DNA of 64,000 bases from Roseburia sp. (lineage in GTDB: Bacteria > Bacillota > Clostridia > Lachnospirales > Lachnospiraceae). Below, in pieces: positions 10,303-64,000 of the stretch. The position numbers and the translations under genes were made by a program. The DNA is taken from contig JAGBEG010000007.1 of assembly GCA_017937095.1 (NCBI GenBank), positions 186,001 to 250,000 of the forward strand, in the 5' to 3' direction. Below the pieces are notes generated by a model that saw only the letters and a list, made by a program, of their open reading frames with translations, was not told the origin of the DNA and did no database searches. Within the stretch, counting starts at the first letter, position 1. Each line of letters opens with the position of its first letter.

Positions 10303-10309
10303 GAGCATA

Positions 10310-48884: not shown

Positions 48885-48892
48885 CAAAAGTC

Positions 48893-48912
48893 TTATAACA
48901 CAAATGTTATAA
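48893..48912. promoter_or_regulatory. 8-4-8 palindromic operator, copy 1
   Basis: TTATAACA-CAAA-TGTTATAA, a perfect inverted repeat. An extra half-site TTATAACA lies 14 bp upstream (48879-48886), overlapping the LysR stop codon. The same 8-4-8 arms recur at 63447-63466. The arms end 18 nt before the -35 box, a normal place for activator binding. Confidence 0.75.
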
Positions 48913-48930: not shown

Positions 48931-48960
48931 TTGGAAAAATGAAAATCGATTTCATATAAT
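48931..48960 (+). promoter_or_regulatory. promoter of the cytidylate-kinase-like/LysR operon
   Basis: TTGGAA (48931-48936), 18-bp spacer, TATAAT (48955-48960). It is identical in boxes and spacing to the promoter at 63486-63515. Confidence 0.75.
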
Positions 48961-48980
48961 ACAACTATTAAGAAGTTGCG

Positions 48981-49017
48981 AAGGGGCTAAGAGGTGTAAA
49001 CCTGCTTGCCCCTTTTG
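48981..49017 (+). terminator. leader hairpin/attenuator
   Basis: AAGGGGC (48981-48987) pairs with GCCCCTT (49008-49014), enclosing AAG/CTT and AGGT/ACCT; four Ts follow. It lies between the promoter at 48931 and the start at 49056, so transcripts from that promoter must pass it. Confidence 0.7.
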
Positions 49018-49055
49018 CGTTTCTTCTGACAATTTACGTTATGAGGAGGGATAGC

Positions 49056-49670
49056 ATGGAAAAGAGACCATATTTTATTACAATCGCCAGACAGTTCGGC
49101 AGTCTCGGAAGACCGATCGCCAAGGAATTGTCCGAATTGCTTGGGATAGAATATTACGACAGGGATATTCTTGAGCTGGCATGCAGGGAACTTGGGAAAC
49201 CGATCGACGAGATAGAAAAATATGATGAGACAGTCGGGAATAACAAGTTCATGCAGATGATGTATCCGCTTGGAATGGGAGACAGCGACATGCACACAAG
49301 GCTGTTTCAGATGCAGCAGAGCCTGATCCGCGACATTGCAAATAAGGAGCAGTCCTGTATCTTCGTCGGGCGGTGCGCAGACTATGTCTTAAAGGATAAC
49401 CGCCGCTGTATCAATGTTTTTATTTTTGCGCCGTATGAAGACCGTTTAAGGAACAGTATCGACGTGCTCGGGCTTTCGCGGGATGAGGCGAAGAAGATGA
49501 TTAAGGAGGTCGATAAGGCGAGGGAGCTGTATCACCGCACTTATGTGAAATCTTCGCTGGAAAGCATTGACGACAAGAGTATTCTCATCAATTCGAGCGA
49601 ACTGGGAGTGGCGGGAACCGCCCAGTTGCTTGCAGAGATGGTAAGACTAAAGTTTCAGCTTGCGGATTAA
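49056..49670 (+). CDS. cytidylate kinase-like family protein
   Basis: 204 aa. ATG 49056 has GAGGAGGG upstream; the ATG at 49041 overlaps that site. The opening ITIARQFGSLGRPIAKELSELLGIEYYDRDIL matches the cytidylate-kinase-like family (PF13189), in which GSGGR is the usual loop; here it is GSLGR. FVGRCADYVLKDN and the Arg-rich LID-like segment are typical. In many Firmicutes such genes are regulator-linked rather than part of nucleotide synthesis. Placed in an operon with the LysR gene 24 nt downstream; the role there is unknown. Confidence 0.85.
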   Translation: MEKRPYFITIARQFGSLGRPIAKELSELLGIEYYDRDILELACRELGKPIDEIEKYDETVGNNKFMQMMYPLGMGDSDMHTRLFQMQQSLIRDIANKEQSCIFVGRCADYVLKDNRRCINVFIFAPYEDRLRNSIDVLGLSRDEAKKMIKEVDKARELYHRTYVKSSLESIDDKSILINSSELGVAGTAQLLAEMVRLKFQLAD

Positions 49671-49693
49671 GAGAAGCTGTTGGGGAATTGCAT

Positions 49694-50557
49694 ATGGAAT
49701 TATCTCAGATAAGAAGTTTTAAAAAGGTTGCGGAGCTGCAGCATATTACAAGGGCGGCAGACGCGCTTTCGGTGACGCAGCCAACGCTCACCAAGACGAT
49801 CCGCCGGATGGAGCAGGAACTGGAAGTACCGCTGCTGCGTCACGTCGGGAGAAATATTGAACTGAGCCAATACGGGGAGATTGTCTATAAGTATTCGAGG
49901 ATTGCGGTCAATGCGCTCGACGATATGCAAAATGAAATCAATGAACTGAAAAATGTTAAGGAGCACAGACTGACCGTTGCAATGAACGGAATTATCTCGG
50001 TAGTTCCATATGTTGTATGTGATTTTATCAAGAGCCGTCCGGACATTCAGGTGGATATCATCCGGGGAGAAAAGCGCGTATATGATATCAATATTTTTTC
50101 CAGTGATTCCGCAGATGAGGAAGGAATGCGCCTGATGGAAGAAAAGTGCATGATCTGCATGTCGGAGCAAAATCCTTTAGCGGCAAAGGATATCCTCTCG
50201 ATTGCGGATGTGGAGCAGCAGGAATTTATAGTGACCGGGCTTAGGCGTGCCATGTATGTGATTTTGGATCATTTCTGCCGGGAGAACGGATTCGTTCCCA
50301 ACATTAAGATTGAGTGCGACAGCGTGGAGGGGCTTCTGGCAATGATCGAGGCGGATGTAGGGATTTCGCTTGTACCGATGAAGACATGGAACTTTGCCAA
50401 ATTTCCCGGTCTGGTATTTCGGGAAGTGCAGGGAAAACAGATTTCAAGATACATGTATGCCAAGGTGAGGGAAGGCAGCTATGAGACGTATGCAATCCGA
50501 CAGTTTATGGATTATCTGAAGAAGAATTTCGACGCGATATTAGCTCAAAAAGTATAG
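49694..50557 (+). CDS. LysR-family transcriptional regulator
   Basis: 287 aa. ATG 49694 has TGGGGA about 8 nt upstream; a TTG two codons earlier is possible. Winged helix MELSQIRSFKKVAELQHITRAADALSVTQPTLTKTIRRMEQELEV, then the effector domain. Cotranscribed with the cytidylate-kinase-like gene and directly before the SsuABC-type operon. An imperfect inverted repeat at 50590-50616 may be its own operator. It probably controls uptake and breakdown of the imported compound. Confidence 0.93.
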   Translation: MELSQIRSFKKVAELQHITRAADALSVTQPTLTKTIRRMEQELEVPLLRHVGRNIELSQYGEIVYKYSRIAVNALDDMQNEINELKNVKEHRLTVAMNGIISVVPYVVCDFIKSRPDIQVDIIRGEKRVYDINIFSSDSADEEGMRLMEEKCMICMSEQNPLAAKDILSIADVEQQEFIVTGLRRAMYVILDHFCRENGFVPNIKIECDSVEGLLAMIEADVGISLVPMKTWNFAKFPGLVFREVQGKQISRYMYAKVREGSYETYAIRQFMDYLKKNFDAILAQKV

Positions 50558-50589: not shown

Positions 50590-50616
50590 TTAGTCACACA
50601 GAAAATCATGTGCTAA
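50590..50616. promoter_or_regulatory. imperfect inverted repeat upstream of the binding-protein operon
   Basis: TTAGTCACA (50590-50598) and TGTGCTAA (50609-50616) are complementary apart from one inserted T. It lies where a LysR regulator would bind, but no clear -35/-10 pair follows. Confidence 0.4.
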
Positions 50617-50630
50617 CATAAGGCAATCAG

Positions 50631-50668
50631 AAGGGCGAAGGTGCCAATAGGGGCATCCTCGCCCTTTT
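50631..50668 (+). terminator. leader hairpin/terminator before the SsuA-like gene
   Basis: AAGGGCGA...GTGCC and GGGCA...TCGCCCTT form a long stem with 5-nt loop and Ts. It may end the LysR transcript or act as an attenuator for the operon starting at 50712, of which it is only 44 nt upstream. Confidence 0.75.
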
Positions 50669-50711
50669 ACTGTAACAAGTAACAGTTTAAAAACAAAAGG
50701 AGGATTCTATT

Positions 50712-51797
50712 ATGAAAAAAAGAACATTTGCCGCATTATTGATACTTGCATTGGCAGCCGCATCGTTCACAGGATGCGGAGAGAAAGAGGAGGGCGCAGC
50801 GGCTCCCGCAGGCAGCGCAGCAGAAAAAGAAAGCGAAACGGCGGCTGCAGAGACGACAGAAGCGGCGGCAGCGGATGCTTTAGCTATTGAATTGAACAAA
50901 GACGGGCTGGATACGGCGACGAAGGTCACGATCGGATATAATTCCACGACATGGATGTGGGCGGTCGATCAGGAAATGCACTTCTTCGAGGATGAATTTG
51001 CAAAATACGGAATCGAAGTGGAATGGCAGCTTTTCGATTCCGGCGCAGCGGAGAAAGAGGCAATGGCGACAAACAATCTGGACTTCGGAACATCGGGAAT
51101 CGTGCCTGTCGTTACGATTGGAGCGTCGGATCTTCCGGTGAAGGTGCTCGCAAAGTACAATCTCGATCCTGCCTATATTGATATTCTTGTTCCGGCGGGA
51201 AGTGACATTAAGGAAGTGGCGGACTTAAAGGGAAAAACAATTGCCTGTCCGATCGGTACGGCGGAGTATGGCTTCCTTCTGATCGCATTGCAGAACGTAG
51301 GGCTTACGGCGGAGGACGTCGAGATCGTGAATATGGCAAAGACCGAGCATGTGACGGCGCTCTCGCAGAACAGCATCGAAGCGACCTGTACGAGCGGTCC
51401 TCACAACCTCACCGCCATCAATGACGGAATTGCAACATCGATTTTAAATTCGGAGGGCGTATTTAACAACACGGCATATATCATCGCGTCAGAAGAATTT
51501 GTAGAGAACAATCCGACCATCGCAGCGATTTTCTTAAAGGCATGGACAGCCGAGATGGATTATATCAATCAGGACATGGAGGCGGCGCTTGATATCGTAG
51601 TGGAGTATACAGGCGCGGAGCGCGAGAGTCTGGTATATGGTCTGAGCGCGGAATATGACACTGAGGTCACCGATTTTGACAAACAGTCTCTGGAAGACAT
51701 TATGAATATGTTTTATGAGACAGGTCAGATCGAGAATACGTTCGATACAGATTCCATTTATGATTTCTCCTATCTTGAGAGAGCGAATGAACTGTAG
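50712..51797 (+). CDS. SsuA/TauA/NitT-family ABC substrate-binding lipoprotein
   Basis: 361 aa. AAAGGAGG before ATG 50712. Lipoprotein signal with Cys22 in FTGC, an Ala/Glu/Thr-rich linker to about 60, then a NMT1/SsuA-like fold (VTIGYNSTTWMWAVDQEMHFFEDEFAKYGIEVEW, GTSGIVPVVTIGASDLPVKVLAKY). This family takes up taurine, sulfonates, nitrate, pyrimidine precursors and other small anionic or heterocyclic solutes. First gene of the long catabolic operon. The solute is unknown. Confidence 0.93.
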   Translation: MKKRTFAALLILALAAASFTGCGEKEEGAAAPAGSAAEKESETAAAETTEAAAADALAIELNKDGLDTATKVTIGYNSTTWMWAVDQEMHFFEDEFAKYGIEVEWQLFDSGAAEKEAMATNNLDFGTSGIVPVVTIGASDLPVKVLAKYNLDPAYIDILVPAGSDIKEVADLKGKTIACPIGTAEYGFLLIALQNVGLTAEDVEIVNMAKTEHVTALSQNSIEATCTSGPHNLTAINDGIATSILNSEGVFNNTAYIIASEEFVENNPTIAAIFLKAWTAEMDYINQDMEAALDIVVEYTGAERESLVYGLSAEYDTEVTDFDKQSLEDIMNMFYETGQIENTFDTDSIYDFSYLERANEL

Positions 51798-51821
51798 GAA
51801 GCGAAGCAGTAGTAATTGCGG

Positions 51822-51849
51822 GAAGAAGTATGAATCATACTTCTTTCCT
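51822..51849 (+). terminator. intercistronic hairpin between binding protein and permease
   Basis: GGAAGAAGTATGA / TCATACTTCTTTCC stem with 1-nt loop centre and no long T-run. It probably allows partial readthrough or protects the 3' end, giving more binding protein than membrane subunits. Confidence 0.6.
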
Positions 51850-51921
51850 TTACAGGAAAACATAGATTAAATCCTATTATTATTAAAAAAGCATGGTCTG
51901 TCAGCAGGGAGAGGATGCAAA

Positions 51922-52698
51922 ATGAAGAGAAAAAAGAGATTAAGCGATTATTGGTGGGTATGTCTTTGGGTACCCTGTCTGTTTATTCTGTTCTGGCAAT
52001 ACGCGGGAAGCGCCGGAGCATTTAATACGAGAGTTCTGCCAACACCGGGAATTATCTTTGATTCGTTTGTAAAACTGATTCAGGATGGCGTGCTCCAGAA
52101 GCATATTGCAATCAGTTTGCAGCGCGTTATTCAGGGCTACATATACGGTTCCCTCGCGGGTATTTTGGTTGGCGCGCTGATGGGCGTGTCGCCGCTTATT
52201 CACCGTTCCTTATCGTTTTTTACCGGTATTTTACGGCCGATTCCGATTATCGCATGGTTCCCGGTGACGATCATGCTGTTCGGTATTGACGAGACATCGA
52301 AGATTCTGATTATTGCAATCGGAGCGTTCTGGCCGGTGCTTATCAATGTCATCGACGGAATCCATAACGTAGATAAAAAGTATATCGAGGTGGCGGAGGT
52401 ATTTATGAAACCGAAGCACACCATCCTTGGGAAAATTATCTTCCCGGGGGCGGCGGTTTCGATTTTCACCGGGTTAAAGGTCGGAATCGGAAATGCGTGG
52501 GTCAGCGTAATCAGCGCGGAGCTGCTTGCGTCAAGCTCCGGTCTTGGCTATCTGATTTCGTCTTCGCGCGAGCTGGCAAAGCCGGGAAGCATGATGGTCG
52601 GCGTGTTCATCATCGGTATTATCGGATGGGCGATCAATACGCTGTTAGAGTTTTTGATGAAATTCATTCTTCCGTGGAATGTGAACGATAAGAGGTGA
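51922..52698 (+). CDS. SsuC/TauC-family ABC transporter permease
   Basis: 258 aa, six predicted membrane helices. The EAA-type loop (YIEVAEVFMKPKHTILGKIIFPGAAVSIF) and GLKVGIGNAWVSVISAELL are typical of the sulfonate/nitrate/taurine branch. Start ATG 51922, AGAGAGG-type site upstream. Works with the 50712 receptor and the 52704 ATPase. Confidence 0.94.
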   Translation: MKRKKRLSDYWWVCLWVPCLFILFWQYAGSAGAFNTRVLPTPGIIFDSFVKLIQDGVLQKHIAISLQRVIQGYIYGSLAGILVGALMGVSPLIHRSLSFFTGILRPIPIIAWFPVTIMLFGIDETSKILIIAIGAFWPVLINVIDGIHNVDKKYIEVAEVFMKPKHTILGKIIFPGAAVSIFTGLKVGIGNAWVSVISAELLASSSGLGYLISSSRELAKPGSMMVGVFIIGIIGWAINTLLEFLMKFILPWNVNDKR

Positions 52699-52703
52699 CG
52701 AAG

Positions 52704-53474
52704 ATGGAAAAAGAAAATGTAAGCTATGTACAGATTCACAATCTGAATAAATCCTTTGCAATGAAAGAGGGCGAACTTAAGGTTCTTGACAATATCAATA
52801 TTGATATCCGAAAGGGCGAGTTCATCTGCATCTTGGGTACCAGCGGCTGCGGCAAGAGCACAATGCTTCGGATGCTGGCAGGGCTCGATACGCTCTATAC
52901 CGGAGAAGTCAAGGTAGACGGGGAGGAGGTCAAGGGACCGAATCCGAATATCGGGATGATCTTTCAGGAGTCGCGTCTTTTTCCATGGATGAGGGTACGG
53001 GATAACATCAAATTCGGCATCAAAAAAGGCGTTTCTAAGGAAGAGCAGGCGGAACTGATCGAGAAGCATATCGAGCTGGTCGGACTGAAGGGCTTTGAAA
53101 AATCCTATCCGCATCAGTTGTCGGGAGGAATGCAGCAGAGAGTCAGCATTGCAAGATCGCTGATCGGCAATCCGAAAATCCTGCTGCTGGACGAGCCTTT
53201 CGGAGCGCTTGATGCGCTCACAAGAATGAACATGCAGCAGGAAACCTTAAGAATCTGGGAAAAGGAACAGGCAACAATGATTCTCGTAACGCATGATATC
53301 GACGAGGCGATTTATCTCGGGAGCCGGATCGTCATCCTATCCAGCAGACCCGGAAAGGTGAAAGAGATTATCGACGTGGATATCGAAAGACCGAGAAAAC
53401 GTACCAGCAAGGAATTTGCAGAACTGAGAAACTATATTTATAATGGCTTTTTTGCCGGAATGGACAACGAATAA
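52704..53474 (+). CDS. SsuB/TauB-family ABC transporter ATPase
   Basis: 256 aa. ATG 52704 is preferred (AAGAGG 8 nt upstream); a GTG at 52695 overlaps the preceding stop. Walker A GTSGCGKST, Q-loop FQESRLFPWMRVRDN, signature LSGGMQQRVSIARSL, Walker B ILLLDEPFGALDALTR and switch His in LVTHDIDEA. Energises the importer; third gene of the operon, 27 nt before the archerase. Confidence 0.96.
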   Translation: MEKENVSYVQIHNLNKSFAMKEGELKVLDNINIDIRKGEFICILGTSGCGKSTMLRMLAGLDTLYTGEVKVDGEEVKGPNPNIGMIFQESRLFPWMRVRDNIKFGIKKGVSKEEQAELIEKHIELVGLKGFEKSYPHQLSGGMQQRVSIARSLIGNPKILLLDEPFGALDALTRMNMQQETLRIWEKEQATMILVTHDIDEAIYLGSRIVILSSRPGKVKEIIDVDIERPRKRTSKEFAELRNYIYNGFFAGMDNE

Positions 53475-53501
53475 GGGATTGGAAAGGGCATGGTTATTAT
53501 T

Positions 53502-54350
53502 ATGAAATTAAAAGAAATCATAGATGCGTCGGTGTACGGGGAGCTAAAGGACGTCCCGACACTGGGAATTGATATCGGATCAAGAATGGGAAAAGGCGTT
53601 CTGCTCGCAGATGGGAACTGTTATACAGCGCTCACGGCAACAGGCGTCAGTATGCAGAAAACAGCGGAAATCCTGCTGGATCAGCTCACGAAGCAGGCAG
53701 GGCGGACGGTGGATGATATTGCCTATGCGGTCAGCACCGGTTACGGAAGAATCAATCTGGGGCTTGGCGATATTCCGACCAAATCCGTGACAGAGATTTC
53801 CTGCCACGGTATGGGCGCGCATTACCTGAATCAGCCGACGAAGACGATCATTGATATCGGCGGACAGGATTCCAAGGCGATCAAGATCGACCCGGAGAAC
53901 GGCAAGGTCGTTGACTTTATCATGAACGATAAATGTGCGGCGGGAACGGGACGCTTTTTTGAGAAGGTGGCTGATTTACTCTCGTGCACGCTTGAAGAGG
54001 CAAGTAAGCTTGCGCTTGAGACGACGAAGAAAATTGACATCAGCAGCCAGTGCGTGGTGTTTGCCGAGTCTGAAATCGTAACGCTCCGTGCAAAGGGAGA
54101 GGAGCGGGCGGACATTATCGCTGCGGTAAATATGGCTTCTGCCAGAAGAGTGCGCAACCTTGTAAACCGTGTGGGACTTGACCCGGATCTTGTTTTCTCC
54201 GGCGGTGTGGCAAACAATCCGGGAATGAAGCAGGCGCTTGCGGAGGTTGTCGGTCATCCGTTTACGGAGACGAAAATGAATATGTCATATAACGGCGCAC
54301 TTGGCGCAGCCATCATCGCGCAGCAATTCTATAACGGCGCGGCAGACTAG
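53502..54350 (+). CDS. archerase-type ATPase (2-hydroxyacyl-CoA dehydratase activator family)
   Basis: 282 aa. ATG 53502 is chosen because the paralogue downstream starts at the same place (MKLKEIIDASVY against MKLKDVIDEKVV); ATG 53490 is also possible. ASKHA fold: LGIDIGSRMGKGVLL, IIDIGGQDSKAI and GVANNPGMKQAL. The two cysteines that hold the [4Fe-4S] between monomers are present in NDKCAAGTGRF and SSQCVVFAESE. Enzymes of this family hydrolyse ATP to push one electron to very low potential into a partner (hydroxyacyl-CoA dehydratase, benzoyl-CoA reductase or double-cubane protein). Its partners are the next two genes. Confidence 0.93.
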   Translation: MKLKEIIDASVYGELKDVPTLGIDIGSRMGKGVLLADGNCYTALTATGVSMQKTAEILLDQLTKQAGRTVDDIAYAVSTGYGRINLGLGDIPTKSVTEISCHGMGAHYLNQPTKTIIDIGGQDSKAIKIDPENGKVVDFIMNDKCAAGTGRFFEKVADLLSCTLEEASKLALETTKKIDISSQCVVFAESEIVTLRAKGEERADIIAAVNMASARRVRNLVNRVGLDPDLVFSGGVANNPGMKQALAEVVGHPFTETKMNMSYNGALGAAIIAQQFYNGAAD

Positions 54351-54363
54351 GGAGGATTCATAT

Positions 54364-56391
54364 ATGAAGTTAAAAGATGTGATAGATGAAAAGGTGGTAA
54401 ATGAATTAAGCACCAATAATGTCGTCGTGGGAATCGATATCGGTTCAAGAACCGGAAAAGCGGTGCTGATCAATAAGGACGAGCTGTATGTGGCGCAGGT
54501 CGGGACAGGGTATGATATGCAGATGACTGCAAATGAACTTCTCGATATGTTGTTTGAGCAGTCGGGTATTACGATGCAGGATGTGCAGTACATCGTCGGG
54601 ACAGGTTACGGGCGCGTCGCAATGAACTTTGAAGGAATGGAAAAGCATATGGTGTCTGAGATTTCCTGTCACGCGATGGGCGTGCATTATCTGGATTCCG
54701 GGACACAGACCATCATCGATATCGGCGGACAGGATTCCAAGGCAATCCGGATCAACCCGCTCACCGGAAAGGTCATCAGCTTTGTCATGAATGATAAATG
54801 TGCGGCGGGAACCGGACGTTTCTTAGAGAAGGTCGCAAATATTCTGGGCTACACGACGGAAGAAATCGGAGATGTCGCGTTAAAGAGCAAGAAGGACATT
54901 GAAATCAGCAGCCAGTGCGTTGTATTTGCAGAGTCGGAGATCATTTCCCTGCGTGCGAACGGAGAACTGCCGGAGGATATTGCGGCGGGCATCCATTTTG
55001 CGGCGGCAAACAGAGTGTACACGCTTGTAAAGCGCGTGGAATTTGCGCCGGGACTGCAGTTTTCGGGCGGTGTGTCGAATAACAGCGGTATGCGCTACGC
55101 GATTGAAAAGCTGATGGGTGTGGAAATCAAGAAGCTTCCGCTGGATATGATTTATGCCGGATGTCTTGGAGCGGCAATTTACGCGCTCCGCTATCTGAAT
55201 GTGCAGGAGAGCAACATCAGCATGTCGACGATTTTAAATCCGTGTGATCTGACAGAAATCGAGCAGGTGATAGAGGAAGAGCAGGAGCGCTTTATCGAAA
55301 AGAAGGACGGCACGAAGAAGGTCGCTTATACCTGTACCTATACGCCGGTTGAGCTGCTCGATGCGGCAGGCGTGCAGCATATTCGCCTGATGCAGGCAGG
55401 AAATACGGAGGAGGTATCTTACGGCGAGGTATTGACGAAAAGCGCATACTGCGACGTCATCAAGAGCTGTCTCGGACGGTTTGCCATGGATCAGCCGCTC
55501 AATAAGGCGATTGACAGGATGTTCGTATTTTATACCTGCGCGTCCATGCGCAAGGCGGCAGAGTCAATGGGGGCTCATTTTGTCGAGACGTCTATCTACG
55601 CAACGCCGCGGCAGGCGACGAGAGAAAGCTCAAGGGACGAGTATTACGAGGAGATGACAAACTGTAAGAGGGATCTTGAGAAATTTGTCGGACACGAGAT
55701 TTCCAATGAGCAGATTTTAGAGCGGATTCACCTCTACAATCAGGTGCGCGCGAAGCTAAAGCAGATATCGGAGCTGCGTCTGCGCAATGAGCCGGCGCTT
55801 ACCGGAGAGGAATTTCTTGAGATCGCAAAATCTTATTTCTATGTCAGCCCGGAAAAATTGCTTCCGGTTCTGGAGAAAAAATATGAGCAGCTTGCAAAGA
55901 GACCGGACAAAGAGATGAAGCGTATGCGTCTGATGATGGTCGGCGGAACTGTATTTGACGGCGACAGAAGAGTCATTGAGATCATTGAAAAGCAGATTGG
56001 AGCAAGAGTCGTTGTCGAGGATCACTGCACGGGCTTAAGCCCGTTCTACAATCAGATACCGGAGGAGGGAGACGCGCTGCGCTGCCTGTCGGAAGGGTAT
56101 CTTGATAAGGCGCCCTGTGCAATCCTTGCACCGATTGAGCACAGAGTGGAATTTACGGCAAAGCTTGCAAAGGAATATAACGTAGACGGAGTGATTTATG
56201 CATATGTGAAGTTCTGTCCGAGCTATGGAACGTTAAAGGGCTGCTTCGTAAAGAAATTTCAGGAGATGGGAATTCCGCTGTTAGAGCTTCCTGTCGATTA
56301 CTCTAAGAGTGATGAGGGACAGCTTAAGACGAGAATTGAGGCATTTGCGGAAGTACTGTTGGAAGTTATGACGAGAAAGGAGAATGCATAA
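54364..56391 (+). CDS. archerase ATPase fused to a 2-hydroxyacyl-CoA dehydratase-type (HGD-D) domain
   Basis: 675 aa. ATG 54364 has GGGAGG. Residues 1-260 repeat the archerase fold with both iron-sulfur cysteines (NDKCAAGTGRF, SSQCVVFAESE). Residues about 285-675 form an HGD-D-like domain with Cys-containing segments (AYCDVIKSCLGRF, FYTCASMRKA, VKFCPSYG) and the conserved end GQLKTRIEAFAE. ATPase and reductase-like subunits are thus joined in one chain, while a separate archerase precedes it and a second HGD-D protein overlaps its stop. The reduction substrate is unknown. Confidence 0.92.
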   Translation: MKLKDVIDEKVVNELSTNNVVVGIDIGSRTGKAVLINKDELYVAQVGTGYDMQMTANELLDMLFEQSGITMQDVQYIVGTGYGRVAMNFEGMEKHMVSEISCHAMGVHYLDSGTQTIIDIGGQDSKAIRINPLTGKVISFVMNDKCAAGTGRFLEKVANILGYTTEEIGDVALKSKKDIEISSQCVVFAESEIISLRANGELPEDIAAGIHFAAANRVYTLVKRVEFAPGLQFSGGVSNNSGMRYAIEKLMGVEIKKLPLDMIYAGCLGAAIYALRYLNVQESNISMSTILNPCDLTEIEQVIEEEQERFIEKKDGTKKVAYTCTYTPVELLDAAGVQHIRLMQAGNTEEVSYGEVLTKSAYCDVIKSCLGRFAMDQPLNKAIDRMFVFYTCASMRKAAESMGAHFVETSIYATPRQATRESSRDEYYEEMTNCKRDLEKFVGHEISNEQILERIHLYNQVRAKLKQISELRLRNEPALTGEEFLEIAKSYFYVSPEKLLPVLEKKYEQLAKRPDKEMKRMRLMMVGGTVFDGDRRVIEIIEKQIGARVVVEDHCTGLSPFYNQIPEEGDALRCLSEGYLDKAPCAILAPIEHRVEFTAKLAKEYNVDGVIYAYVKFCPSYGTLKGCFVKKFQEMGIPLLELPVDYSKSDEGQLKTRIEAFAEVLLEVMTRKENA

Positions 56392-57617
56392 TGGAAGGAG
56401 AAACCTTTGTTGATATCAGGGATTTTAAATCACAGCAGGATTATTTTGACTATTGTAAAAATGTGCAGCACCCGTATTCCCATGCGGTAGGGCGGCTCAT
56501 TGATCTTGCGAGCAGCTACATATTCTACGCCGAGGAGCAGGCCACAAAGGGGCAGAAAGCGTCCTACTGCGGAGCGACATGGGAGGCGCCGCTGTTCTAT
56601 GGCTGTAACGTCCTGCCGGTCGCAAATACAGAGCTTGGACGTCTGGGAAGCAGACAGGCGATTTCCGTTGCGGAGAATCATTTCCTGATTCCGCGCGAGG
56701 CGTGTTCCATGCTTGGCTCTCTGCTCGGAGAATGGTACCTGCGCAAGGATTACCCGATTAAGATGTGCGTCGGGGCAAGCTCGCATTGCGAAGCGCAGAA
56801 CATGGTATCTGAGTTGATCAAGAATGAGGGCTATAAGATTTACCGTTATGAGGGAATCTATCGTCCGCCTCACTGCACCGAGGAACGGCGCGCACAGCTC
56901 GTGAAGAATCTGACGAGACAGCTTGAGGGAATCGCGGATTTCCTCTGCGACGGCAAGCCGTGGGACGAGGAGGCAATCCGCCGGGAAATCCATCGGAATA
57001 ATGAGGCGATTGACAAGGTAAAGCGGATTATGGATCTGCGCATCGAGCGTCCGACCTATGTCAAGAGTCTTGCGACCATGTATCTGATGACGGGACTGGG
57101 ACACTATTTTGGAAGACCGGACGAATACATCGACATTTTGGACGAGCTGATCGACGAGCTGGAAAACTGCGATGCATCGTTTATCGGCAGGGATCTTGCA
57201 ATGCCGATTGTCTGGATCGGCGGGCGCGGTCAGGAGTTTGGCGTTTATCACGCGGTGGATCAGTGCAACGGGGCGCTGCTCGGCTGGGTCGGTGACAATT
57301 GCTGTACAAGAAAATACGACGAGAGCCTTCCGGTGTTAGAGTCGCTTGCGGCGTACTATATCGACGGAACGTGGTCGGGCGCATCGGAACACAAGATGAA
57401 ATATATCAACGAGCAGTTAGAGCTTACAAAGGCAAAGGGCGTGATCTTCTACGGTTATGTGGGATGCTCTTATTCCGGTGTCGAGCATGAAATTTTAAGA
57501 GCCGATTTAAAAGAAAGAGGAATCTCAAGTCTCAGCATTCAGGGAACCTTCCAGGTCGGACCGCCGAGCGGACAGCTTCTTACGAGAGTCAGCGCGTTTG
57601 TTGAGATGCTAAGTTAG
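56391..57617 (+). CDS. 2-hydroxyacyl-CoA dehydratase/double-cubane-type subunit (HGD-D family)
   Basis: 408 aa. ATG overlaps the previous stop (TAATG), so strict coupling. Family features: YCGATWEAPLFYGCNVLPV near the N-terminus, KMCVGASSHCEAQNM, a helical middle, DNCCTRKYDESL and the end GYVGCSYSGVEHE with GQLLTRVSAFVEML. The many cysteines could hold [4Fe-4S] or double-cubane clusters. With the 54364 product it would form a two-subunit reductase or dehydratase. No acyl-CoA ligase or CoA-transferase is seen, so a CoA ester substrate is not certain. Confidence 0.92.
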   Translation: MEGETFVDIRDFKSQQDYFDYCKNVQHPYSHAVGRLIDLASSYIFYAEEQATKGQKASYCGATWEAPLFYGCNVLPVANTELGRLGSRQAISVAENHFLIPREACSMLGSLLGEWYLRKDYPIKMCVGASSHCEAQNMVSELIKNEGYKIYRYEGIYRPPHCTEERRAQLVKNLTRQLEGIADFLCDGKPWDEEAIRREIHRNNEAIDKVKRIMDLRIERPTYVKSLATMYLMTGLGHYFGRPDEYIDILDELIDELENCDASFIGRDLAMPIVWIGGRGQEFGVYHAVDQCNGALLGWVGDNCCTRKYDESLPVLESLAAYYIDGTWSGASEHKMKYINEQLELTKAKGVIFYGYVGCSYSGVEHEILRADLKERGISSLSIQGTFQVGPPSGQLLTRVSAFVEMLS

Positions 57618-57632
57618 AATAGAGGGAAAGCT

Positions 57633-58769
57633 ATGGTAGAAAATCTTATCACAAAACCAATCTGTCTGGTGGCGCCGACTTATGTGCTCGGCGGGAAATC
57701 AGTCAAGGAGACAAAAGAAAAATATCATTTGCCTTACGCACACCGGATGCTTGCAAACGAGAATCCGCTCGGCATCTCACCGAAGGCAGCGGAGGCGATT
57801 GCAAGAGCGGCGGCAGAGGGCGGAAGCGTCTATCCGGATACCAATTCCACCGAGCTTCGCACGAAGCTTGCAGGAATGCTTGATTTTGCGGCATACGGTA
57901 TGGGAATTGAAAACTTAAACGTGACGGCGGGGGCGGAACATGCGCTCAATATGATTATGGAGATTTTCTTAAAGGAGGGTGACGAGGTGCTGATTTCGGC
58001 GCCTTCCTACAGTGGCTATAACCGCACGATTGCGAGAGCAGGCGGCGTGAAAAAGACGATTCCGTTCCTTGCAGACGGGCATTGCGATTTTGACGGGCTG
58101 CTTGCGGCGATTACCGATCAGACGAAAATCGTGATTTTGTGCAATCCGAATAACCCGACCGGATGCTTTGAGAAGAAGGAAAAGGTGCAGGAGTTCGTGA
58201 AGCGTTTTCCGAAGGATAAGATTCTGATCGTGGATGAAGCCTATATTCATTTTGCGCCGGGAGGCATGGAGCAGTCCGTTTACACCGAGGTCTGCGAGGA
58301 TGTGAATCTGATTGTCACACACACGTTTTCCAAGATTTACGGAATGGCGGGAATCCGCGTCGGCTATATCATCAGCAACCGGGAGATATCGGGATATTTG
58401 CGCAACTACGGAGGCGTCAGATTGAGCAACGTGCAGCAGGCGGCGGCGCTTGCTGCGCTCGACGATCAGGAATTTTATGACAGAACGCTTGCGGTCACGG
58501 TAGAGGGCAGGGACTATCTGATCCGGGAGCTGCGCGCGCTTGGGTACAGCCCTTATGAGAGCGCGGCGAATTTCGTATTCTGTGACCTTCATATGGATAA
58601 GGCATATCTGGACGAAGCCTTTATGCGGCGCGGCATATTGATTCGGACGAATCTGGAGTACCCACGTATTTCCGTCGGAACGATGGAGCAGAACCGTCTG
58701 TTTATTGAGGCGTTAAAGGAAATCAGAGAGGAAAAAAATAAAGATGCGGTGCACAGGGAAGGAGCGTGA
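57633..58769 (+). CDS. PLP-dependent aminotransferase, class I/II (HisC-like)
   Basis: 378 aa. PLP-binding Lys234 in THTFSKIYGMAGIRVGY; NPNNPTG and VDEAYIHF are also present. The N-terminal segment (PICLVAPTYVLGGKS, RMLANENPLGISPKA) resembles histidinol-phosphate aminotransferases, which in operons like this often act on other amino acids. 15 nt after the HGD-D gene; the stop precedes the racemase start by a few bases. It would move nitrogen from a ring-opened amino acid intermediate. Confidence 0.92.
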   Translation: MVENLITKPICLVAPTYVLGGKSVKETKEKYHLPYAHRMLANENPLGISPKAAEAIARAAAEGGSVYPDTNSTELRTKLAGMLDFAAYGMGIENLNVTAGAEHALNMIMEIFLKEGDEVLISAPSYSGYNRTIARAGGVKKTIPFLADGHCDFDGLLAAITDQTKIVILCNPNNPTGCFEKKEKVQEFVKRFPKDKILIVDEAYIHFAPGGMEQSVYTEVCEDVNLIVTHTFSKIYGMAGIRVGYIISNREISGYLRNYGGVRLSNVQQAAALAALDDQEFYDRTLAVTVEGRDYLIRELRALGYSPYESAANFVFCDLHMDKAYLDEAFMRRGILIRTNLEYPRISVGTMEQNRLFIEALKEIREEKNKDAVHREGA

Positions 58770-58774
58770 CAAGG

Positions 58775-59512
58775 GTGCGGTTGTTTGTAATCAATACGGG
58801 CTATGATATGTCGGACGAGGAGATTGAAATACGTGTGCAGAGGATGAAACGGGCTGCTTCGCCGGACACTACGATTCATATGGAATGTCTGGAAGAGACA
58901 AAAATATGCATTGATTCCCAGTTGGATGTAGCGCTCGCTTCACCGGAAATCATCAAGAAGGCGATAAAGGCGGAAAAAGAGGGCTATGATGCAGTGCTTT
59001 TATATTGCACCAGCGATCCCGCTATGGAGGCGTGCAGAGAGGCGGTAAAGATTCCGGTCATCGGCGGGGGCATGGCGTCTTTTTTGACGGCTGCGGCAGT
59101 CGGAAGCCGTTATTCCATGATAATTACCTCAAAGGAACGGGAGTCGGAGAAGCACCGCTTTATCAAGGCGTCCGGGTTAAATTCGGGAGATTTCATATCG
59201 GTGCAGAGCATTGAATATGATATTCTTTCCATGCAAAAGCAGAAAGAGAAAACAGACACGGTAAATCAGTTGACTGCCGCGGCAAGGAAGTGTGTGGCTG
59301 ACGGGGCGGACGTCGTGATTTTAGGATGTCTCGGCTTTGCAGGAATGGGAGAAGCCGTAAGCCGCGCAGTGGGCGTCCCGGTCATAGATCCGGCATTTGC
59401 CATGGTGGGACTTGCCGAGGCTTTGTGCCGTCAGAAACTGGCGCAGTCAAGGCATGCCTACTGCAACCCTCCGAAGCGGGCGCGCATCTGGGCAGGCGGG
59501 AGCATGGAGTAA
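58775..59512 (+). CDS. Asp/Glu/hydantoin racemase family protein
   Basis: 245 aa. GTG 58775 is chosen (AAGGAG 10 nt upstream); a GTG at 58766 overlaps the aminotransferase stop. The two catalytic cysteines of the family are Cys78 (LLYCTSDPAM) and Cys185 (VILGCLGFAG). The text RLFVINTGYDMSDEEIEIRV fits the hydantoin/aspartate racemase fold. Together with the hydantoinase-like gene at 62052 it points to a cyclic ureide or amide substrate that needs stereo-inversion. Confidence 0.88.
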   Translation: MRLFVINTGYDMSDEEIEIRVQRMKRAASPDTTIHMECLEETKICIDSQLDVALASPEIIKKAIKAEKEGYDAVLLYCTSDPAMEACREAVKIPVIGGGMASFLTAAAVGSRYSMIITSKERESEKHRFIKASGLNSGDFISVQSIEYDILSMQKQKEKTDTVNQLTAAARKCVADGADVVILGCLGFAGMGEAVSRAVGVPVIDPAFAMVGLAEALCRQKLAQSRHAYCNPPKRARIWAGGSME

Positions 59513-59536
59513 TAAGGCAGGGAAGGAGTCTGTAAA

Positions 59537-60532
59537 ATGAAGGTGGTCGTATGTGTAGAAGAAATCCGCGGGGAACTTGCGTCCTTTGACGAGTTAAAGG
59601 ACTTATGGCAGAAAAAGCTCTCCGCCATTGGCGGAATAGATGAAATCTGCATCGTCAGGGAAGCGGAACTTAGGGATATCACAGTGCAGGAGGCGGCTTA
59701 TAAAAACGCGGATGCTGTTTTAGGAATGAAGCTAAAAGATGGAAGTCTCTCCGAAGAATTTTTAAACAGATATCCGGCGCTAAAGTATGCGGCGACTTTC
59801 AATCACGGCTTTGGCAGTTATGACAGGGAGGCGGTAAAACGCCACGGCGTCACCGTTACGAATACGGTCTATGGCGATGTGACGGTGGCACAGTTTGCTA
59901 TGGCGCTGCTCTTAAATATCTGTCATGACATAACTGCAAACAGCACTTATTACAAAGAGGAGCATTTTAACCGCCCGCAGGAAGCCGGGAAGAATCCGCC
60001 TCCTGTGACATCACAGATGGAATTATACGGAAAAACGCTTGGCATCATAGGGCTTGGGAGTATCGGGTTGTGGGTGGCAAAAATGGCGGCGGGCTTTGGC
60101 ATGAAGGTGATCGCAAGCAGCCGTCATCCCAAAGAGGGAAAGGAATACGAATTTATTGAGCAGGTATCTGTCGAGGAAGTGATAAAAAACAGCGATGTGG
60201 TTTCCATTCACTGTCCGCTCACGGAAGACACCCGTGGAATGATCAACCGTGAAACGATTTCACGGATGAAGGACGGCGTGATTCTGATCAACACGGCGCG
60301 GGGAGATATCATCGTAGAAAAAGACCTGATAGAAGCACTGAATAGTGGAAAAATCCGGGCGGCAGGGCTGGATGTGGTAAGCGGCGAGCCGTTAAAGGAG
60401 AAAACTGGGATATTTTACTGCAAAAATGCTTATATCACACCGCATATGGCGTGGCTTACGAAGGAAGCGGTGTACCGTCAGGTGGATGTGGCGGTGGAGA
60501 ATTTCAGAAGGTGGAAAGAAAAAGTTGACTAG
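59537..60532 (+). CDS. D-isomer specific 2-hydroxyacid dehydrogenase
   Basis: 331 aa, NAD(P)-dependent. Rossmann motif GIIGLGSIGLWVAKMAAGFG, the catalytic Arg in NTARGDIIVE, Glu in GLDVVSGEPL and His in ITPHMAWLTKEAV. GGAAGGAG before ATG 59537. It would oxidise or reduce a 2-hydroxy acid in the pathway, the substrate class acted on by HGD-type enzymes. Its TAG stop is the first triplet of the interspersed repeat core at 60530. Confidence 0.93.
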   Translation: MKVVVCVEEIRGELASFDELKDLWQKKLSAIGGIDEICIVREAELRDITVQEAAYKNADAVLGMKLKDGSLSEEFLNRYPALKYAATFNHGFGSYDREAVKRHGVTVTNTVYGDVTVAQFAMALLLNICHDITANSTYYKEEHFNRPQEAGKNPPPVTSQMELYGKTLGIIGLGSIGLWVAKMAAGFGMKVIASSRHPKEGKEYEFIEQVSVEEVIKNSDVVSIHCPLTEDTRGMINRETISRMKDGVILINTARGDIIVEKDLIEALNSGKIRAAGLDVVSGEPLKEKTGIFYCKNAYITPHMAWLTKEAVYRQVDVAVENFRRWKEKVD

Positions 60533-60558
60533 CCGTAAACGGCACCGCTCGGGCGCGG
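60530..60558. repeat. core of the interspersed repeat, copy 2
   Basis: 29 bp identical, with one mismatch, to 45588-45616. It starts exactly at the stop codon of the hydroxyacid dehydrogenase and contains the GCCGT-AA-ACGGC hairpin. Only the core is present here; the flanking CTCTATAG parts are absent. Confidence 0.9.
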
Positions 60559-60586
60559 AGAATCCGGCAGAGCCGGATTCTTTTTT
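60559..60586 (+). terminator. terminator attached to the repeat core, mid-operon
   Basis: GAATCCGG / CCGGATTC, 5-nt loop, six Ts. It lies between the dehydrogenase and the amidohydrolase, 28 nt before the latter's start, leaving no room for a normal promoter in between. Confidence 0.9.
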
Positions 60587-60614
60587 GTACCCAAATTTAA
60601 CAGGAGGCACAGGC

Positions 60615-62039
60615 ATGAAAAAAATAGATTTAATGATTCATACGGGAATGATGTATACCATGCAGGGTGACGGACTTGGATTTTGTCAGGGAAAATCTAT
60701 CGCCGTCGACGGAAGTAAAATTATTGATATAGATGAAACGGAGAACATACAGAGCCGGTATCAGGCGGAAAAGGAGATTCACGCCGAGGATATGCTGACG
60801 CTGCCCGGCTTCGTAGACGGACATATGCATACAGGGCATGGCGTGATCCGGGGAGTGGCGCAGGACATTGACAACTGGATGATGGAGGGAATGGCGCCCT
60901 TTGAAGCCGCAAGAAGCGCCGAAGCAAAGGATGCGGGAAGCCGTCTTGCAATCGCGGAGGCGATTCTGTGGGGGACGACGACCATCGGGGATGACGGCTC
61001 TGCAATGGAGGGAGCGATAAAGTTTATTGAACAGTCGGGAACGCGGGGAAATGTCAGCGTCCGCGTGCGAAGTGCGCTGCCGAAGGCATACAAAAAGGGA
61101 GAACTCTATGTGCTCGATGAAAAGATGGGGGAGGAGACTTTAGGAGAGGCGTTATCCTTGTATGAAAAATATCATGACAGGGACGGCGGCAGAATCAAAA
61201 TCCGTTTTGGCCCTCAGGGGGCGGACTTTCTGGGAGTCGGGCTGTTAGAACGGGTGAAACGGATTGCAAAGGACAAAAAGACAAAAATACATATGCATCT
61301 GGCGCAGGGAACGAGGGAGACAGAACAGATGATGATGCGCTACGGGCAGCGGACAATTCCTTTCCTGGAAAAAATGAATTATTTTGATGAGGACTATATC
61401 GGGATTCACCTGACAGACGCCACAAAGGAAGAGGTTGAGACGGTGGCAGCCCATAGAGGAAACATGATACTCTGCTCAAATTCCATCGGCGTTATTGCGG
61501 GAAGAGTACCTCCGGCGCAGGAGTTTTTGGAGGCGGGCGGAAACGTGGGACTTGGAACGGATCAGGCGCCGGGAAATAACGGGCATAATATGTTCTCCGA
61601 AATGAAGGCGACCTCCTGCTTTAACAAGATAAAATATCAGAGTTCCACGATCATGCCGGCATGGAAGGTGCTGCGCATGGCGACCATAGAAGGGGCAAGG
61701 GCGCTTGGAATTGACGATGTGACAGGAAGCATCGAGGTCGGGAAATGTGCAGATATCATTCTGATCGACTTAAAGAACCCGCAGCTTGCACCGGTCTATA
61801 CGGTGCCGATGCGCAATCTTGTCCCAAATCTGGTATATGCGGCAAGAGGAAATGAAGTAGACACCGTCATTACGCACGGAAGGGTCATTGTAGAGCACAG
61901 AATCCCATTGACATTTGATCTGGCACAAATCATAGAAGACGCCCAGAAATATGCCGATGTGATCGGAGCAAAGGCGCAAAAGCAGTTTGAGGAAATCAAC
62001 GGAAGAAACGCGCAGTATATGCGGGAAGGAAAGCTATAG
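60615..62039 (+). CDS. SsnA-like/ATZ-TRZ amidohydrolase
   Basis: 474 aa. ATG 60615 has AGGAGG. Metal motifs: LPGFVDGHMHTGHGV (HxH), HMHLAQGTRETE, GIHLTDATKEE and the late Asp in VGLGTDQAPGNNGHNMF; these fit zinc-dependent aminohydrolases of the chlorohydrolase/SAH-deaminase/SsnA group, which act on ring amines or cyclic amides. Paired with the hydantoinase-like gene 12 nt downstream. The same two families accompany each other in anaerobic purine-ureide degradation, but the xanthine dehydrogenase and YgfK-type genes of that pathway are absent here. Confidence 0.92.
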   Translation: MKKIDLMIHTGMMYTMQGDGLGFCQGKSIAVDGSKIIDIDETENIQSRYQAEKEIHAEDMLTLPGFVDGHMHTGHGVIRGVAQDIDNWMMEGMAPFEAARSAEAKDAGSRLAIAEAILWGTTTIGDDGSAMEGAIKFIEQSGTRGNVSVRVRSALPKAYKKGELYVLDEKMGEETLGEALSLYEKYHDRDGGRIKIRFGPQGADFLGVGLLERVKRIAKDKKTKIHMHLAQGTRETEQMMMRYGQRTIPFLEKMNYFDEDYIGIHLTDATKEEVETVAAHRGNMILCSNSIGVIAGRVPPAQEFLEAGGNVGLGTDQAPGNNGHNMFSEMKATSCFNKIKYQSSTIMPAWKVLRMATIEGARALGIDDVTGSIEVGKCADIILIDLKNPQLAPVYTVPMRNLVPNLVYAARGNEVDTVITHGRVIVEHRIPLTFDLAQIIEDAQKYADVIGAKAQKQFEEINGRNAQYMREGKL

Positions 62040-62051
62040 GAGGAGAAAGCA

Positions 62052-63443
62052 ATGTATGATTTACTGATAAAAAACGGAACAGTGGTAACGCCTGAAAATA
62101 CAGGAATCAAGCACATTTACGTCAGGGACGAGAAAATTGTGGCGGTCACATCCGAGCTGCTGAATGAACCGGTGAAAAAGACGATCGATGCGGCAGGCTT
62201 ATATGTCTATCCGGGATTTATTGACACGCATGTGCATTCCAGAGACGGCGGAAGCACGCACAAGGAAGATTTCTATCATTCCACCAGGGCAGCCGCGGCG
62301 GGCGGCATCACCACGATTTTTGAAATGCCAAACGCCGTGCCCGCAGTGGTGGATAAGGAGAGCTTTCAGGCGCAGAAAGCGAATCTGCTTAGCAAGGCGA
62401 ATGTGGACTTTGCCATGTGGGGGCTGTGTATCGGAGCGCTCAATAACGACAAGCTTATGGAACTGTCGGAATGCGGGGTAGGGGCATTCAAGTTTTTCTG
62501 GGGGTACGCGATAGACCAAAAGACATATTCCCTGATCTATAACTATGACCCGGCGGATTCCAGCGTGATACCGCCCTTTGATGACGGCGAGGTGTACGGG
62601 ATATTTCAGGCGGTGGCAAAGACGGGAAAGCCGATTGCCATTCATGCGGAAAATGCAGATTTGATTAAGTCGCTGACCGCCAATATCAGGGTGGAGGATT
62701 ACGAAAATGAATTTGAAGCGCTGTTGGCGTGCCGTCCGAATCTGGCGGAAGAGCTGGTCGTAAACACGGCAATCCAGTATTCCAGGGAGACCGGGGCAAG
62801 GCTGCATATTCTTCATATCAGCGCAAAAGAAACGGTGGACATGGTAAAGAGGGCGCAAAAGGAGCAGATTCCCGTAACGGGGGAGACCTGCCCCCACTAT
62901 CTGTATCTCACCAACGAGGACTATGACAGAATCGGCAGCATGATCAAGTGTTACCCGCCGGTGCGCAGAAAAGAAGACCAGAAGAAGCTGTGGGAGGGGT
63001 TAGAGGACGGAACGCTCATGTTGGTCTGCTCTGACCACGCACCCCACACCCCCGAAGAAAAGGAGGGCAGCCTTTTTAAAATCCCTTCCGGCATGTGTGG
63101 TCTGGAGACGCTGGTACCGTTAATGCTGCAGGCGGTCAATGACGGCAGGATAAGCAGGCAGCAGCTTGCAAGCGTATTGTCGGAGGAACCTGCAAAAATG
63201 TTTGGGATTTATCCGAGGAAGGGGTCTTTGGAGACAGGAACGGACGCGGATATCTCGATTGTGGACTTTGACCGGGAATATGAGGTGCATAAGGAGGATT
63301 TTCAGAGCGTCAGCAAGGTCACAGCGTTTGACGGAATGAAGATCAAAGGAAAACCGGTATACACCATTTTGCGGGGGAATGTCATTATGGAGAATGGAAA
63401 GGTGAAGGAGGATACGCCGATCGGAAGATTTATAAAGGCGTAA
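62052..63443 (+). CDS. hydantoinase/dihydropyrimidinase-like cyclic amidohydrolase
   Basis: 463 aa. AGGAGG before ATG 62052. Metal-site HxH in GFIDTHVHSRDGG, carbamylated Lys147 in GAFKFFWGYAID, His in HILHISAKE and the Asp in VCSDHAPHTPEE; GETCPHYLYLTNEDY is typical of the dihydropyrimidinase/allantoinase/hydantoinase group. It opens a cyclic amide or ureide ring hydrolytically. Last gene of the unit before an operator-promoter pair. The exact ring substrate cannot be read. Confidence 0.93.
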   Translation: MYDLLIKNGTVVTPENTGIKHIYVRDEKIVAVTSELLNEPVKKTIDAAGLYVYPGFIDTHVHSRDGGSTHKEDFYHSTRAAAAGGITTIFEMPNAVPAVVDKESFQAQKANLLSKANVDFAMWGLCIGALNNDKLMELSECGVGAFKFFWGYAIDQKTYSLIYNYDPADSSVIPPFDDGEVYGIFQAVAKTGKPIAIHAENADLIKSLTANIRVEDYENEFEALLACRPNLAEELVVNTAIQYSRETGARLHILHISAKETVDMVKRAQKEQIPVTGETCPHYLYLTNEDYDRIGSMIKCYPPVRRKEDQKKLWEGLEDGTLMLVCSDHAPHTPEEKEGSLFKIPSGMCGLETLVPLMLQAVNDGRISRQQLASVLSEEPAKMFGIYPRKGSLETGTDADISIVDFDREYEVHKEDFQSVSKVTAFDGMKIKGKPVYTILRGNVIMENGKVKEDTPIGRFIKA

Positions 63444-63446
63444 TAT

Positions 63447-63466
63447 TTATAACAAAATTGTTATAA
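63447..63466. promoter_or_regulatory. 8-4-8 palindromic operator, copy 2
   Basis: TTATAACA-AAAT-TGTTATAA, perfect, with the same arms as 48893-48912. It ends 19 nt before the -35 of the next promoter. Confidence 0.75.
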
Positions 63467-63485
63467 GGGATAGCCGAAAACGATA

Positions 63486-63515
63486 TTGGAAAAAGAAAAA
63501 TAACCCAATTATAAT
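63486..63515 (+). promoter_or_regulatory. promoter of the NodB-fold hydrolase
   Basis: TTGGAA (63486-63491), 18-bp spacer, TATAAT (63510-63515); same boxes and spacing as 48931-48960. Confidence 0.75.
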
Positions 63516-63565
63516 ATGCATATGCAGACAAAGGGGTTTGCACACAAATTAAATATTATAATTGC

Positions 63566-63602
63566 AAAGGGGCAGCGGTATCAGTGATACGGCTGCCTTT
63601 TT
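63566..63602 (+). terminator. leader hairpin/attenuator before the NodB-fold gene
   Basis: AAAGG...GCAGC...GTATC / GATAC...GCTGC...CCTTT with 3-nt loop, then Ts. It lies between promoter and start codon, mirroring the arrangement at 48981. Confidence 0.7.
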
Positions 63603-63660
63603 GTCGAAAACTATGTATTCGCAGTACATAAAAAAACAAAAACAGAAGGGAATGGGTGAG

Positions 63661-64000
63661 ATGGTAAATTTAAAATTGGGCGATGGAATTGTCTGGCCAA
63701 ATCAGGCGGACATTGCAGTTATGGTCACCTTTGATTTTGACGCGGAATATTTAAGAATATCCAGAAATGACGATGGCGTCATAAATTTTGCAGATATGTC
63801 CAGAGGCCTGTACGGACCGAATGAGGGCTTAGAGCGATGCTTAAAGGTGCTAGAGGACACCGGGATCAAATCTACCTTCTTTATTCCGGGGAAAATCGCG
63901 GAGCGTTATCCTGAGAAGGTAAGAGAAATCGCATCAAAAGGACATGAGCTTGCATACCACGGTTACGAGCATGAAAGCGAGATTGGTTATCCGATCGAGA
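63661..64000 (+). CDS. NodB/polysaccharide-deacetylase-fold hydrolase, 3' end outside window
   Basis: 113 codons visible. ATG 63661 has AGAAGGG about 10 nt upstream. The metal-site motifs VMVTFDFDAE and HGYEHE belong to the NodB fold; the opening WPNQADIAVMVTFDFDAE resembles the branch containing cyclic-imide hydrolases and PuuE-type allantoinases more than chitin deacetylases. In this neighbourhood of amidohydrolases, a cyclic amide/imide role is more likely than cell-wall deacetylation. Function of the missing C-terminus unknown. Confidence 0.85.
   Translation, partial: MVNLKLGDGIVWPNQADIAVMVTFDFDAEYLRISRNDDGVINFADMSRGLYGPNEGLERCLKVLEDTGIKSTFFIPGKIAERYPEKVREIASKGHELAYHGYEHESEIGYPIE

Follow-up and report, generated by a model that had tools for sequence, protein, structure and literature searches.

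A predicted ATP-driven reductase module, encoded directly behind an importer of the SsuABC type, was identified in a 64,000-nucleotide stretch of DNA from Roseburia sp. (here called the window; bases 186001-250000 of contig JAGBEG010000007.1, C3 in our numbering), which belongs to a 3.89-Mb genome that is 94.6% complete. We tentatively favor, with confidence a little short of even, a reading in which an ATP-driven and probably CoA-free reductase acts on the cargo of the importer, most likely by C-S cleavage, within a combined sulfur and nitrogen scavenging regulon. A narrower form of this reading, in which the module is an oxygen-independent, ATP-driven desulfonase, a CoA-free complex resembling benzoyl-CoA reductase, that splits the C-S bond of SsuABC-delivered sulfonates and releases sulfite in anaerobes of the Bacillota, Chlorobiota, Thermodesulfobacteriota, and Myxococcota, is possible, though doubtful. 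We infer that the substrate is the importer's cargo, an organosulfur compound, and the reaction is deduced likewise. A preliminary description of the window had already listed these genes as part of a co-directional run that also encodes hydrolases, an aminotransferase, and a dehydrogenase, and this was confirmed by gene order and family profiles; all the genes that it named are present, co-directional, and closely spaced, and the family assignments from profile searches agree. The core of the module (50712-57617) is arranged as follows:

50712..51797, + strand: substrate-binding lipoprotein of the SsuA family (TIGR01728 195.4 bits, cut-off 163.5)
51922..52698, + strand: importer permease (profile matches)
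52695..53474, + strand: importer ATPase (profile matches)
53490..54350, + strand: archerase, an ATP-driven electron donor (PF01869 180.7 bits; TIGR00241 above cut-off; cysteines 149 and 188 present)
54364..56391, + strand: archerase-HGD-D fusion with a six-cysteine double-cubane pattern (profiles, alignment, and fold)
56391..57617, + strand: HGD-D partner chain with a three-cysteine [4Fe-4S] pattern, the presumed active-site subunit

Judged from their sequences, the two archerases and two HGD-D chains are a rare clade with an architecture like that of class I benzoyl-CoA reductase. All six double-cubane cysteines of the fusion's HGD-D domain are kept in 15 of 15 complete sequences and align with the [8Fe-9S] ligands of BzdN (Cys36/73/100/263/293/327), with a spacing of 39/29/163/30/33 as against 37/27/163/30/34 in BzdN; the partner chain has three cysteines that are invariant in 23/23 complete chains, the BzdO [4Fe-4S] counterpart being Cys95/128/380. 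The folds of the fusion's HGD-D domain and of the partner chain also speak for this reading (AlphaFold, VIA-align), and the partner chain matched HadC, DCCP, BzdN, and a BzdNO entry. Scores fell below every cut-off of the bzd and bcr models (e.g., bzdQ, 182.8 against 380.2 bits; bzdN, 113 against 453.8 bits) and below that of the DCCP model NF040772 (226.3 and 62.4 bits, cut-off 350), and the fusion has the six-cysteine HGD-D chain and archerase partner that characterize a DCCP. The cluster types and the assembly of the complex are given here as predictions, and ATP-driven, low-potential reduction, as proposed in the preliminary description, is supported. Elsewhere in the same genome (C7:780436-782145), two further archerase domains lie in a separate frame of 1420 residues.

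In the mechanism that we propose, the importer would bring in a small, probably sulfonate-like compound, and an archerase dimer, formed by the separate subunit and the fused domain, would spend ATP to drive single electrons into an [8Fe-9S] cluster of the fusion's HGD-D domain. From this cluster the electrons would pass into the partner chain, whose [4Fe-4S] site would have one iron free and would be the place where the substrate is reduced, an electron path that is drawn by analogy with BzdNOPQ. Most probably, a C-S bond would then be cleaved reductively to yield sulfite, sulfide, or a thiol for assimilation, as an oxygen-free counterpart of SsuD/TauD and in parallel to methylthio-alkane reductase.

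The reductase is probably CoA-independent and would take a free substrate rather than a CoA ester. The absence of CoA activation noted in the preliminary description held in the longer run, in which no CoA ligase or transferase was seen, including the ∼6.4 kb beyond the window where a CoA ligase had been named as the finding that would speak against the proposal; the CoA-transferase families PF02515 and PF01144 had zero matches in the genome, a search restricted to these two families, CoA ligases having been looked for in the run only. These results bear on a further explanation, namely that the reductase is an ordinary (R)-2-hydroxyacyl-CoA dehydratase of the Stickland reductive branch with CoA transfer encoded elsewhere, which we consider very improbable. 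Such an enzyme would suit the HisC-like aminotransferase and D-2-hydroxyacid dehydrogenase, which are those metabolic genes of the run that are also found next to the reductase in its closest relative (L015); however, that pair was found without the reductase in 8/8 loci fetched of 12 found, the (R)-2-hydroxyglutarate dehydrogenase lies far down among the solved relatives of the dehydrogenase (92.6 bits, against 149.8 for the best), the nearest of which are a family protein and glycerate/glyoxylate types, and there are two archerase genes, one of them fused. Three cysteines per HGD-D subunit are expected of a 2-hydroxyacyl-CoA dehydratase, as stated for HAD component D in a passage of PMC11574389, whereas the fusion chain has six. 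The Stickland dehydratase was rejected on the number of cysteines and on the lack of PF02515 and PF01144 matches in the 94.6%-complete genome.

Relatives of the module are rare. With its own genome included, the partner chain had matches in 2/397 genomes of the family at 1e-40 and in 2/391 genomes of the class, and, as a profile at 1e-50, in 4/398 genomes of the phylum. Scanning GTDB contigs yielded 15 loci with the reductase, and a plasmid set added one relative of the partner chain; the fusion had 36 plasmid records, many of the 15 listed being YjiLM-type pairs, and no relative was found in viral contigs. In total, 19 loci outside the window (L015-L029, L051, L057, L058, and L059) from 17 genomes were compared, L023 and L024 deriving from one genome, L026 and L027 from another, and L022 and L029 being contigs of <5 kb; 10 loci, eight with the aminotransferase/dehydrogenase pair and two with PuuE genes, served as controls. 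Among the organisms compared is Ruminiclostridium hungatei DSM 14427, whose locus L018 encodes an archerase, the fusion, the second HGD-D chain, and SsuABC. A literature search returned no title or abstract describing this reductase module, with most subscription journals outside its coverage.

Conservation of gene order, which the preliminary description had proposed to examine, revealed that the recurrent partner of the reductase is the SsuABC-type importer, often together with sulfur genes, and not the ring-opening hydrolases. An SsuA-type binding protein or permease adjoins the reductase in 14 of the 19 loci as against none of the 10 controls, a count for which some of the binding-protein references derived from the loci themselves; the 14 loci represent 12 genomes, L026 has permeases only, and in L059 the binding protein is encoded on the opposite strand at a distance of 6.8 kb. 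In six of six whole genomes, among them those of L018 (G683) and L028 (G029, of the same family as the window genome), the nearest SsuA_fam gene lies 0.3-7.9 kb from the partner chain, and each genome holds only 3-12 such genes; the chance product for this proximity, 2e-10, treats places as random and is a rough guide only. The SsuA_fam gene within 10 kb was also the genome's best match to the model in four of the six, the exceptions being G029 and G1079. In the window genome, the binding protein of the run is the sole one of three SsuA_fam genes above the cut-off, and its nearest solved relatives are SsuA (twice), TauA, and one protein named a nitrate transport protein.

The numbers of binding proteins rise with those of partner chains in three loci, with four partner chains and five binding proteins in L023, two and two in L024, and three and two to three (one being split) in L027; L057 has one partner chain and three binding proteins. 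The tandem partner chains of L023 (four, 8658-13837) and L024 (two, 9911-12797) belong to one Deltaproteobacteria genome, and in the Pelosinus locus L027 the second binding-protein gene is split into two frames (7130-8211).

Sulfur-type genes (methylthio-alkane-reductase-like, CysK, MetK), nitrogenase-like genes, or variant radical SAM genes flank the reductase in 7/19 loci. In L058, from the Bacillota genome G923, one strand encodes CysK, MetK, a variant radical SAM protein, an unassigned protein, SsuA, the fusion, the partner chain, a permease, an ATPase, and a sulfite-reductase-family protein, followed by a tRNA and then PF03601, MetA, NifB-like, and NifH genes; CysK, MetK, and MetA each score above their own cut-offs. 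The Geobacter locus L025 contains an Rrf2 regulator, CysK, MetK, a NifH-family gene, and four variant radical SAM matches. In the Chlorobiaceae loci L017 and L019, MarD/MarK-like genes are present for which chains of 9FMG, a methylthio-alkane reductase structure, and 9D9U are by far the closest solved relatives (283 vs. 98 bits for K and 152 vs. 77 bits for D in L019), and weaker K-like genes occur in L023 and L026 (34% and 32%). Group IV-A nitrogenase-like genes are tied to methyl-sulfur metabolism in a passage of Kountz and Balskus (PMC10418091). In the window genome itself, a sulfate-assimilation-like run (neighbors named by eye) lies at another place; its sulfite-reductase-family gene shares 44% identity with the one in L058.

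Several observations weigh against a sulfur substrate. No sulfur gene adjoins the reductase in the window or in its closest relative, L015; in L058, the sulfite-reductase gene is below the cut-off of its best model, AsrC (155 vs. 324.1 bits), and NifH, which passes the nifH cut-off (407.5 vs. 394.35), may be part of a true nitrogenase. SsuA_fam is a subfamily model, a nitrate transport protein is one of the four solved relatives of the window binding protein, and the best solved relative of the L058 binding protein is likewise named a nitrate transport protein. The window binding protein shares only 27.5% identity with its counterpart in L015, 28.5% with the one in L018, and 32% with the one in L058, so its cargo may differ from that of its relatives. 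Finally, L016, L021, and L051 have long flanks yet lack an importer, and in L021 and L051 (Rhodocyclales) the reductase operon sits behind an AraC-type regulator.

In an alternative explanation, the enzyme is a CoA-free reductase of another small substrate, neither a sulfonate nor a ring, served by NMT1/SsuA-type importers of changing specificity; the hydrolases would be a nitrogen module of their own that answers to the same regulator. A tree of 18 adjacent and 25 other SsuA-type proteins gave 8 label changes (shuffled mean 14.0; none of 500 shuffles as low), the adjacent binding proteins thus being clustered and yet on several branches. A single shared binding-protein lineage for the module did not emerge, and since the adjacent proteins are not of one origin, either importer and reductase were paired repeatedly or one importer was exchanged for another of a single superfamily. 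The stand-alone operons in Aromatoleum and Azoarcus, which lack the importer, are in keeping with this alternative, as is a passage of PMC11971306 in which DCCP is described as reducing small molecules of unclear relevance; however, the sulfur-type genes in 7/19 loci speak against it, and we regard it as rather unlikely. The stand-alone archerase/fusion/partner operon of Azoarcus sp. KH32C (plasmid pAZKH, L051 14997-19188) has in its vicinity genes whose annotations are acyl-CoA metabolism and a putative sulfate exporter.

The remainder of the run starts further upstream than had been noted (47967-50557) and extends ∼6.4 kb past the window end, as seen in the extended locus L008. The further features are:

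47967..48884, + strand: LysR-type regulator, possible regulator of the run (38% identity to the LysR of L015)
48879..48912, no strand: predicted operator, with a one-mismatch copy at 48879-48898 overlapping the exact palindrome TTATAAC-N6-GTTATAA at 48893-48912; promoter-like box at 48931-48960
49041..49670, + strand: cytidylate-kinase-like protein (PF13189; homolog in the L015 cluster, 30% identity)
49688..50557, + strand: second LysR-type regulator
57633..58769, + strand: HisC-like aminotransferase (a 76% identical copy adjoins the reductase in L015)
58766..59512, + strand: Asp/Glu/hydantoin racemase family protein (PF01177 112.6 bits)
59537..60532, + strand: D-2-hydroxyacid dehydrogenase (84% identical copy in L015)
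60615..62039, + strand: TRZ/ATZ (SsnA-type) amidohydrolase (profiles; start from ribosome-binding site)
62052..63443, + strand: AllB-type allantoinase (TIGR03178 377.5 bits, cut-off 357.85)
63447..63466, no strand: second exact copy of the predicted operator; promoter-like box at 63486-63515
63652..64000, + strand: first PuuE-like NodB-fold hydrolase, truncated where the window ends (L008 3652-4563)

The start of the fusion was corrected to ATG 54364 and that of the SsnA-type gene to ATG 60615, on the basis of alignment and of likely ribosome-binding sites. Past the window, L008 encodes a second PuuE-like protein, an M20 amidase, a dihydroorotase-like protein, an iron alcohol dehydrogenase in two open frames (7769-9034; a broken gene or an assembly error), and a class III aminotransferase, followed by sugar-type ABC transport genes (named by eye).

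The preliminary description had treated the run as one functional unit, and this found support in the palindrome, of which the genome has just two exact copies, one before the cytidylate-kinase-like gene and one before the PuuE-like unit; because this common predicted operator precedes both halves, the run appears to be one unit. Each exact palindrome is followed at a distance of 18-19 bases by a TTGGAA...TATAAT box, inside a common GATATTGGAAAAA block, and the only other site with one mismatch, on C6, is unrelated, a reversed control pattern also giving one site. The region shows no surplus of promoter-like or terminator-like sites (23 vs. 19.8 and 11 vs. 14.5 expected), so the palindrome alone carries the regulon argument. 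The leaders of the three units, at 48955-49050, 50600-50711, and 63510-63630, fold far better than shuffled sequences (z = -4.1, -4.1, and -5.5) and, between the promoter-like box and the gene, carry a GC hairpin with U-runs behind it. Similar-looking hairpins, judged by eye, directly precede the modules in L015 and L018; attenuation or antitermination is possible. At gathering scores, the one Rfam match in the window was a tRNA, and six loci gave none; a further search gave one chance-like microRNA-family match inside the AllB gene and, in three loci, a tRNA and one chance-like match; riboswitch control of the run was rejected for want of a credible match.

The shared operator is also the main reason for keeping alive the pathway put forward in the preliminary description, in which reduction feeds ring opening. 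In that pathway, the reductase would reduce a free N-heteroaromatic ring, whose opening and breakdown would then resemble reductive pyrimidine or ureide catabolism and be carried out by a deaminase (60615), cyclic-amide hydrolases (62052 and downstream), an M20 carbamoylase, the class III aminotransferase, and the alcohol dehydrogenase. The gene set can indeed be read as hydrolysis, decarbamoylation, transamination, and reduction, neither of the two CoA-transferase families is matched in the genome, and AllB stands above its cut-off together with the M20 amidase as a member of the hydantoinase/carbamoylase family (TIGR01879, 334 vs. 204 bits), the combination expected of an allantoin/ureide system; the M20 amidase is below the cut-off of the allantoate amidohydrolase model (370.3 vs. 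399), as are the PuuE-like proteins for theirs (72.1 and 79.2 vs. 424.6 bits). However, homologs of the racemase and of the SsnA-type, AllB-type, PuuE-like, M20, and dihydroorotase-like proteins were found in none of the 19 reductase loci outside the window at 1e-10, and the importer is of the sulfonate type. Pyrimidine reduction, moreover, needs no ATP. The coupling of ring opening to reduction also lost ground in that the PuuE pair and the aminotransferase/dehydrogenase pair both occur elsewhere without the reductase. PuuE gene matches were found in 2 other genomes of 387, in both of which the pair adjoins an amino-acid-type importer (by eye); the dehydrogenase had matches at 1e-75 in 12 other genomes of 387, and in each of the eight loci fetched an aminotransferase homolog lies within 5 kb (in pieces in L049). 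Only in L015, which holds the closest copies, do both recur beside the reductase. As a conserved pathway, reduction with ring opening was rejected on gene order; in this genome it is possible, given the predicted operator that the hydrolases share with the reductase half, and we judge it rather unlikely. The ureide-type hydrolases and the aminotransferase/dehydrogenase pair probably harvest nitrogen. In several of the eight Lachnospiraceae loci with that pair (L043-L050), genes resembling amino-acid or peptide importers, ammonium transporters, and MATE exporters are present (by eye), an arrangement as if amino acids lose nitrogen and leave the cell as hydroxy acids.

We know of no enzyme by which strict anaerobes take sulfur from sulfonates. 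If C-S cleavage by the module is true, anaerobes gain a counterpart of SsuD/TauD, for which concrete genes and a named organism, R. hungatei DSM 14427, are at hand. A natural relative of benzoyl-CoA reductase that takes free substrates would, in addition, widen the chemistry of enzymatic Birch reduction, currently limited, according to a passage of PMC11971306, by its restriction to CoA-ester substrates.

Among known systems, class I benzoyl-CoA reductase (BzdNOPQ/MbdNOPQ) shares with the module two archerases, a six-cysteine HGD-D chain with nearly the same spacing, and a second, three-cysteine chain; it differs in that here an archerase is fused to the six-cysteine chain, an SsuABC importer takes the place of a CoA ligase, and scores are below the bzd and bcr cut-offs. 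DCCP with DCCP-R (YjiM/YjiL) is a homodimer, whereas the module has a distinct three-cysteine partner chain and scores below NF040772. The (R)-2-hydroxyacyl-CoA dehydratase (HadBC/HadI) resembles the module in fold and archerase, and a D-2-hydroxyacid dehydrogenase and an aminotransferase are nearby here; the six cysteines in one chain rather than three, the lack of a CoA-transferase match (PF02515, PF01144), and the importer linkage set the module apart. Methylthio-alkane reductase (MarHDK) is likewise an ATP-driven, low-potential reductase for organosulfur compounds, and Mar-like genes adjoin the module in Chlorobiaceae, but MarHDK is of the nitrogenase-type protein family and unrelated to the HGD-D reductase. 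In SsuABC with SsuD/TauD, as here, an SsuA-family importer stands beside an enzyme presumed to act on its cargo; desulfonation by SsuD/TauD is O2-dependent, whereas in the module a predicted ATP-driven anaerobic reductase occupies the position of the oxygenase.

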